DNA of 64,000 bases from Alphaproteobacteria bacterium (GTDB lineage Bacteria; Pseudomonadota; Alphaproteobacteria; Rhizobiales; BM303), in the NCBI GenBank assembly GCA_024275895.1, contig JAJRYE010000046.1, forward strand, positions 33,353 through 97,352, given 5' to 3'. Position numbers and translations under genes: made by a program. The notes under the pieces are model-generated. The model saw only the letters and a list, made by a program, of their open reading frames with translations, was not told the DNA's origin and ran no database searches. Below are positions 28,855 through 60,506 of this stretch, in pieces; position 1 is the stretch's first letter; each line of letters begins with the position of its first letter.

Positions 28855-29016
28855 ATCGCCCCTTGGCGTTATTGCGGCTTTGCGTTGCAGGTGAACTGTT
28901 AGCAGCGCCGTCCCGGCTTGTCCATGCAATGACAAAACTCTTGCGCCGTTCCACCGATCACCATTCGAGGTTGACGGGTCCGCTCTCTTGAGTATGATCC
29001 GCCCGCATACAGCCTT

Positions 29017-29103
29017 GCCCCTGTGGCGGAATTGGTAGACGCGCTGGATTCAAAATCCAGTTCCCGTACGGGAGTGGGAGTTCGATTCTCCCCGGGGGCA
29101 CCA
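29017..29103 (+). tRNA. tRNA-Leu (anticodon CAA), CCA encoded
   Basis: gcccctg acceptor pairs with cgggggc; anticodon stem ctgga/tccag with loop ttcaaaa (CAA); long variable arm; T-arm gggag-ttcgatt-ctccc. Confidence 0.95.
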
Positions 29104-29405
29104 TTTTACATATCTCGCGGCTACTCCTCGCTACGCTCGGGCCTCCGGTGGGGCGGCTTGACCGGCCGTCGCCCGGTCGGGCTTTGGGGAGAGTATTCGA
29201 GGTTTCTCTGCCCCGCTGCACCATTATTTGTCTCGCGGCTATTCCTCGCTAGCGCTCGGGCCTCCGACGGGGCGCGCTGGCCGCGCGGCGCCCGGTCGGG
29301 CTCTGGGGAGAGTGTTCGAGGTTTCTCAGCCCTACTGCACCATTATTTGTCTCGCGGCTATTCCTCGCTACGCTCGGGCCTCCGGTGGGGCGGCTTGACC
29401 GGCCG
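29101..29405 (+). repeat. ~120-bp tandem repeats downstream of tRNA-Leu, each complete unit ending in a degenerate tRNA 3'-end-like sequence
   Basis: 'ccatt..' boundaries at 29101, 29221, 29340; 'ctcgcggctaYtcctcgcta(g)cgctcgggcctccg' occurs three times; 'ggggagagtRttcgaggtttctc.gccc..ctgcaccatta' occurs at the end of two units. Confidence 0.85.
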
Positions 29406-29534
29406 GCGGCGCTTGCACCGCTTGGTGCGCCGGGCTTGAGGTTTAACCTCTCAAAGGTTCATGTTCTTTATTGCTCCCCGGCCGCTTTTGTGCCTTTTCT
29501 TGGCTTTTTTCAGAAACCGGCGGGATGATTTTAC

Positions 29535-48666: not shown

Positions 48667-48742
48667 TGGTGGAGCCGAGGGGAATCGAACCCCTGACCTC
48701 TACATTGCGAACGTAGCGCTCTCCCAACTGAGCTACGGCCCC
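48667..48742 (-). tRNA. tRNA-Ala (anticodon CGC), CCA encoded
   Basis: reverse complement ggggccgtagctcagttgggagagcgctacgttcgcaatgtagaggtcaggggttcgattcccctcggctccacca; loop ttcgcaa. Confidence 0.95.
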
Positions 48743-60440: not shown

Positions 60441-60506
60441 ATCATTCCCGGCTCTATCCCGTCATTCCCGCCTCTCTACCGTCATTCCCGCGAAGGCGGG
60501 AATGAC
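60441..60506. repeat. REP-like 'tcattcccgc' element: two half units plus one complete palindrome, 20-bp spacing
   Basis: (a/g)tcattcccg at 60441, 60461, 60481; complete palindrome gtcattcccgcgaaggcgggaatgac at 60481-60506. Confidence 0.8.

Follow-up and report, generated by a model that had tools for sequence, protein, structure and literature searches.

Tandem repeats behind tRNA-Leu(CAA) in an alphaproteobacterial genome: candidate non-coding cassettes at duplicated tRNA 3' termini

We have analyzed a tandem repeat array that stands flush with the CCA of a tRNA-Leu(CAA) gene, with no gap between the two. The array is one instance of a class-wide phenomenon, a covarying repeat family that lies flush with tRNA 3' ends and carries duplicated termini that match the tRNA next to each repeat; the repeats of at least one genus are exchangeable cassettes. 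We lean, with slightly better than an even chance of being right, towards reading the array as a small tRNA-anchored stack of non-coding cassettes, inserted and shuffled at duplicated tRNA 3' termini. This reading draws on direct observations of placement, covarying structure, an own-specific terminus, relatedness within genomes and changing order at an orthologous tRNA.

The array behind tRNA-Leu(CAA)

The window, which is the whole stretch of 64,000 nucleotides analyzed here, contains the tRNA-Leu(CAA) gene with its encoded CCA at positions 29017-29103 (ARAGORN; Rfam RF00005, 59.7 bits); this anchor and all features of the array lie on the forward strand. A promoter-like site found by consensus scan, TTGACG-16-TATGAT, is located on the same strand just 5' of the tRNA (28971-28998). 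Tandem Repeats Finder reports a period of 119, 2.5 copies and 87% matches (score 476 at 29113-29408), which bears out the tandem array of ~120-bp units noticed in a preliminary description of this DNA, and the unit boundaries given there are correct to within a few bases. Units 1 (29104-29223) and 2 (29224-29342) each consist of a body, matched by model R1 at 29107-29183 (93.3 bits) and 29225-29302 (92.8 bits), and of a tail with the end GCTGCACCA in unit 1 and ACTGCACCA in unit 2; both terminate in ...GCACCA. Unit 3 (29343-29440) is partial, with an altered P4 arm and without the tRNA-like CCA tail, and its body is still matched by the model (29344-29419, 74.2 bits). Across the window, the body covariance model finds no site above 11 bits beyond the three units, all of which are of one type, designated A below.

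The tRNA-like tail of unit 1 (29184-29223) is made up of a hairpin, GGGGAGAG/CTCTgCCCC with TTCGA, followed by GCTGCACCA; that of unit 2 occupies 29303-29342. Unit 1's tail was assigned from sequence, fold and the own-terminus tests described below, that of unit 2 from sequence. Compared with the 3' end of tRNA-Leu(CAA), the exact part of the tail is GCACCATT, a match that would suit several tRNAs, and the last 12 nt agree at 9 of 12 positions. The TTCGAGG of the array lies 29 nt from the end of the CCA, 5 nt wider than in a tRNA. Intrinsic terminators, searched for as a GC hairpin with a T-run, number 0 between 28850 and 29950. The five nearest ORFs are predicted to encode a VTT-domain protein, DsbB, a BrkB-family protein, a cytochrome c-like protein and a PQQ-propeller protein; there is no integrase or recombinase among them, and no attC-type site was identified. 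The second tRNA of the window, Ala(CGC) at 48667-48742, has no unit behind it and is a natural comparison for the array locus. A short tandem repeat of period 20 and 2.5 copies (TCATTCCCGCCTCTATACCG) was also seen at 60442-60491.

A dispersed and structured body

Searching the host genome (2.47 Mb in 138 contigs) with BLAST, we found that the unit matches 36 places, some of them away from tRNAs. With the body scattered in this way, simple local tandem duplication of the tRNA end was rejected as a full account of the array. The preliminary description had taken the unit for a duplicated tRNA end plus trailer; the terminus is indeed a duplicate, but the unit as a whole is not, its ~77-nt body being dispersed, structured and present also away from tRNAs. 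Occurrence of the unit elsewhere in the genome had been named there as a finding that would count against a tRNA origin. It is partly what we see, and the siting next to tRNAs is still far above chance. Among 29 tRNA matches in the genome, six intact tRNAs (Leu-CAA, Thr-GGT, Glu-CTC, Val-CAC, Ala-GGC and Leu-TAA) carry the body right after the CCA, as does a seventh, readable as Leu-TAG, which is truncated at a contig boundary; most of the 29 have no body there. With 29 tRNAs, a 10-nt window at each and two strands of 2.47 Mb, we estimate the chance of such siting at ~6e-5 per copy.

We aligned 32 bodies, drawn from several families within the order, with no guidance from structure, and folded the alignment with RNAalifold. 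In the predicted layout P1 encloses P2 and is followed by P3, P4 and a variable hairpin, over ~77 nt. The paired arms read TATC/GATG, TGTC/GACG or TCGC/GCGG in P1, GGC/GCC in P2, CGGCC/GGCCG, GCGCG/CGCGC or CGACC/GGTCG in P3, and GCCC/GGGC, GGCC/GGCC or GCGC/GCGC in P4. Two-sided changes occur in 12 of 16 pairs, with a covariation of 0.355 against 0.102 for shuffled and at most 0.057 for slid alignments. In 150 copies aligned by the model, an alignment biased towards the structure, the figures are 14 of 16 pairs and 0.459, compared with 0.123 after shuffling and no more than 0.054 after sliding. U-G is present at one P1 pair, and the arms of an extra hairpin that comes next also change together (CGAACCC/GGGTTCG, CGAGCCC/GGGCTCG, CCGATG/CATCGG). 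The structural claim rests on covariation only, since minimum free energy folds of single units are no better than those of shuffled sequences (z -0.9 and +0.3). Only tRNA attains the gathering score in Rfam, which excludes a known RNA family there as the identity of the body, and the open-access literature that we searched gave no account of the element. The covariation points to a structured, RNA-like family that is absent from Rfam.

Distribution and placement

The model matches at least 67 of 199 genomes of the order (at least 52 of the 173 good ones), with often 24 or more copies per genome. Over the class the body is sparser, with at least 13 of 282 good genomes in a sample. A DNA pattern run over named genomes found it in records of Maricaulis, Marinicaulis, Mesorhizobium, Rhodobium, Phreatobacter, Hephaestia, Neomegalonema and Robiginitomaculum; this pattern is unfit for gauging tRNA association because it demanded CCATT. 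Phage records gave no match to the body, and in the plasmid database PLSDB a Mesorhizobium query matched with its tRNA part only and not with the element. An origin of the body from the phages or plasmids in these collections was accordingly set aside.

At 67 distinct sampled tRNA loci the model starts 1-7 nt past the CCA (at one locus, at -8), and the tRNAs concerned include Leu, Ser, Thr, Arg, Val, Ala, Met, Lys and others. Copies away from tRNAs tend to follow protein genes in the sense orientation: 22 of 86 lie within 12 nt past a stop codon, versus 3-5% of random positions. For a limit of 25 nt the figures are 31 of 86 versus 6-9%. Several intergenic gaps contain two inverted copies that face each other, each possibly behind its own convergent gene. 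Intrinsic terminators were found in 4 of 61 tRNA-type units, near the 1-3 of shuffled sequences, and there is little T-tract enrichment after the last hairpin; with the 0 in the window region, these counts led us to reject a role as intrinsic terminator.

The tail repeats the terminus of the adjacent tRNA

The tail of tRNA-type units ends in CCA, most commonly 29 nt past TTCG (exactly 29 at 13 loci). TTCGA itself occurs in 27 of 61 tRNA-type, 18 of 47 pseudo-site and 18 of 172 gene-type copies, versus ~3% in shuffled sequences. A recognisable CCA tail is kept in only about one third to one half of the tRNA-type units.

The tail agrees with the terminus of its own tRNA better than with those of permuted tRNAs: over the last 8 nt z=6.1, with 0 of 20000 permutations as high (p<5e-5). 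Loci that share one genome are not independent in these tests. When 22 loci, picked for a CCA at the expected spacing and with at least one or two of them misanchored, are aligned on the CCA, the own match reaches 91% at positions -6 and -4, where 36% and 50% would be expected; at -9 to -7 it is 59%. Permutation gives 0 of 20000 for -9 to -4 and p=0.006 for +0 to +5, and the profile has no excess of own matches upstream of -10. When the test is confined to single-unit loci it loses strength (K=8, p=0.00025; K=12, p=0.2). Examples are Lys-CTT, with CCACCATTCCTTC on both sides, Arg-CCT with TCACCAT, and Thr-CGT with ACCCATGCGGCACCA.

The last ~6-9 nt of a tRNA-type unit are a copy of the adjacent tRNA's terminus, while the T-arm-like TTCGAGG part is a generic hairpin of the element and is not specific to that tRNA; an own-specific T-arm was rejected, as the CCA-aligned profile shows no excess of own matches that far upstream. 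The likeness to a tRNA 3' end in the preliminary description stands for the terminus, which is own-specific across loci, and falls for the T-arm, which has the 5-nt wider spacing. Flanking duplication is seen in tRNA-type copies (7.19 vs 5.62) and not in gene-type copies (4.80 vs 4.72, p=0.22). Target duplication is not general for the family, since gene-type copies lack it, and a MITE that makes a target-site duplication at every insertion was rejected on this ground.

Relatedness within genomes and cassette order in Maricaulis

Copies of the body relate by genome and not by tRNA. Units behind different tRNAs of the same genome have a likeness of 0.757, versus 0.634 for units behind the same tRNA in different genomes and a background of 0.643. 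In the host genome, identity between the Leu-CAA unit and the Thr-GGT unit is 93%.

Order was compared at 17 Maricaulis loci of the orthologous tRNA-Arg(ACG). Here A denotes the body family of the window array and B an unrelated body (..CCCGCTCCGCTCGACCCGAGCC..). The orders found are A-B-B', A-B-A, B-A-B, B-A', B-B-A', B alone and none; there are also a B that has an A/B hybrid and then a truncated A behind it, as well as decayed A or B, and two loci hold apparently unrelated inserted sequence. The junctions between these bodies are GGTGCGCCATTT or close variants, a sequence made up of the end of tRNA-Arg(ACG) and the beginning of its trailer. Behind Maricaulis Arg-TCT, B ends instead in CCTGCCGGGGGCGCCATTTT, which resembles that tRNA's own end. 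Unequal crossing-over could yield part of this reordering.

Other unrelated repeats in Mesorhizobium also begin at the CCA. At two Maricaulis and eight Mesorhizobium loci we noted at least three other unrelated hairpin-rich bodies flush with a tRNA CCA, one of which, in Mesorhizobium, ends in GGTTCGATTCAGGGCCGCTGAGGCGCACCA, the same 30-nt tail from T-loop to CCA. No clean empty site was found at tRNA-Leu(CAA) in 81 Mesorhizobium genomes, where the DNA past the CCA is too diverged.

Origin of the arrays

In the reading that we favour, a cassette would be a ~77-nt structured body plus a tail closing with a short duplicate of the terminus of the tRNA beside it. It would enter at the tRNA 3' terminus so that the terminus, ~N68-A76 plus TTT, becomes duplicated on both sides and the tRNA remains intact. 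The duplicates would then provide a homology or recombination site for the gain, loss and reordering of cassettes, including those with unrelated bodies. Insertion, by some enzyme, probably made the duplicate terminus, and the sense siting behind tRNAs and stop codons would reflect tolerance of a folded 3' trailer or a use for it, perhaps to block exonucleases or to end the transcript. Against this model stand the gene-type copies, which show no flanking duplication, the frequent loss of tails, the weaker signal of single-unit loci, the negative outcome for a clean empty site and for a recombinase, and crossing-over as an alternative source of the shuffling. A stronger version, in which a dedicated site-specific reaction at tRNA 3' termini (N68-CCA-TTT) inserts, loses and reorders several unrelated kinds of folded cassette in Alphaproteobacteria, is offered tentatively, as it is rather unlikely to hold; if it does, tRNA genes would be the counterpart of the integron attachment site.

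Slippage or unequal crossing-over is the presumed origin of the E. coli tyrT repeats. The same process, copying a stretch that starts close to the tRNA 3' end and takes in the repeat behind it, with no site-specific step, would explain arrays with partial last copies, and E. coli tyrT has such a layout though it is unrelated to the body. As an account of the present arrays we consider it doubtful. The own-specific stretch begins at about -9 to -6 in independent loci, single-unit loci included, one body stands behind many tRNAs and has its closest likeness in copies that the same genome carries at other tRNAs, and the junction is common to the unrelated bodies A and B.

Equally doubtful to us is a selected trailer RNA, kept because it helps to finish the pre-tRNA or mRNA, stops 3' exonucleases or serves as a small RNA, with the tail as a functional mimic. 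The strong RNA-type covariation, including the U-G at a P1 pair, and the sense siting right behind tRNAs and stop codons agree with such a role. It fits poorly with the patchy distribution (13/282 good genomes in the class sample and 52/173 in the order, both lower bounds), the majority of tRNAs per genome that have no body, the lack of a canonical intrinsic terminator in the array and of marked T-tract enrichment in tRNA-type copies, and the tails missing from many units.

Remnants of attL and attR left by phages or islands that integrated at tRNA 3' ends are quite improbable: such integration with direct repeats, of 12-98 bp, is usual in S. meliloti (PMC11476347), and three copies follow a bare tRNA-Ser 3' fragment as islands leave it, but the body has a conserved fold and occurs behind protein genes too, phage records do not match it and plasmid records matched a query by its tRNA portion only, the own-specific repeat mostly measures 6-13 nt, and the spacing within the tail is 5 nt off that of a tRNA. 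With a further locus, the element was seen at four places behind a bare tRNA 3' fragment (e.g. TTCGAATCCCTCTCTCTCCGCCA), an attR-like arrangement.

Comparison with known systems

To our knowledge, the E. coli tyrT repeats have so far been an isolated curiosity. The preliminary description had likened the array to this locus, and in layout the comparison is sound: re-reading the region downstream of E. coli tyrV, we found three 178-bp units, each of which terminates in 19 nt identical to the 3' end of tRNA-Tyr. Like the tyrT/tyrV repeats (rttR, which is rtT RNA, and tpr), the array consists of tandem units after a tRNA that each end in its 3' terminus. The comparison does not extend to homology of sequence or structure, as model R1 has no match up to E=10 in NC_000913 at 1284800-1288800. 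The tyrT type is also marked by a stable processed RNA and a small basic peptide. In E. coli there is a single locus, its unit 178 bp long and its exact copy 19 nt; the body described here is dispersed and covarying, and is found at many tRNAs in many genera.

Integron arrays (attI/attC) share with the present system a single anchor, unrelated bodies, a repeated junction and an order that varies between species. We found this combination at Maricaulis tRNA-Arg(ACG) and not in the window. The cassettes here differ in having non-coding bodies, a tRNA 3' end as anchor and no identified integrase or attC-type site. REP/BIME and rhizobial RIME-type repeats are likewise short, palindrome-rich, dispersed and intergenic; we set the present family apart by description, as it starts exactly at the tRNA CCA or past stop codons and has the own-tRNA tail. 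Islands and prophages integrated at tRNAs also exploit tRNA 3' ends and leave the terminus behind as direct repeats, whereas the present element is ~100 nt, gene-free and has a conserved RNA-like fold.

A tyrT-like layout recurs in Alphaproteobacteria, at many tRNAs, with one common covarying body and exchangeable unrelated bodies, and tRNA ends have the appearance of places where small non-coding cassettes dock. The comparative set now allows tests of the origin of tRNA-trailing repeats and of tRNA 3' ends as general docking sites for tiny non-coding DNA, and it adds a structured RNA-like family that Rfam lacks. In three Mesorhizobium genomes a copy seems to lie within a protein-coding region, which is reminiscent of the Rickettsia palindromic elements.
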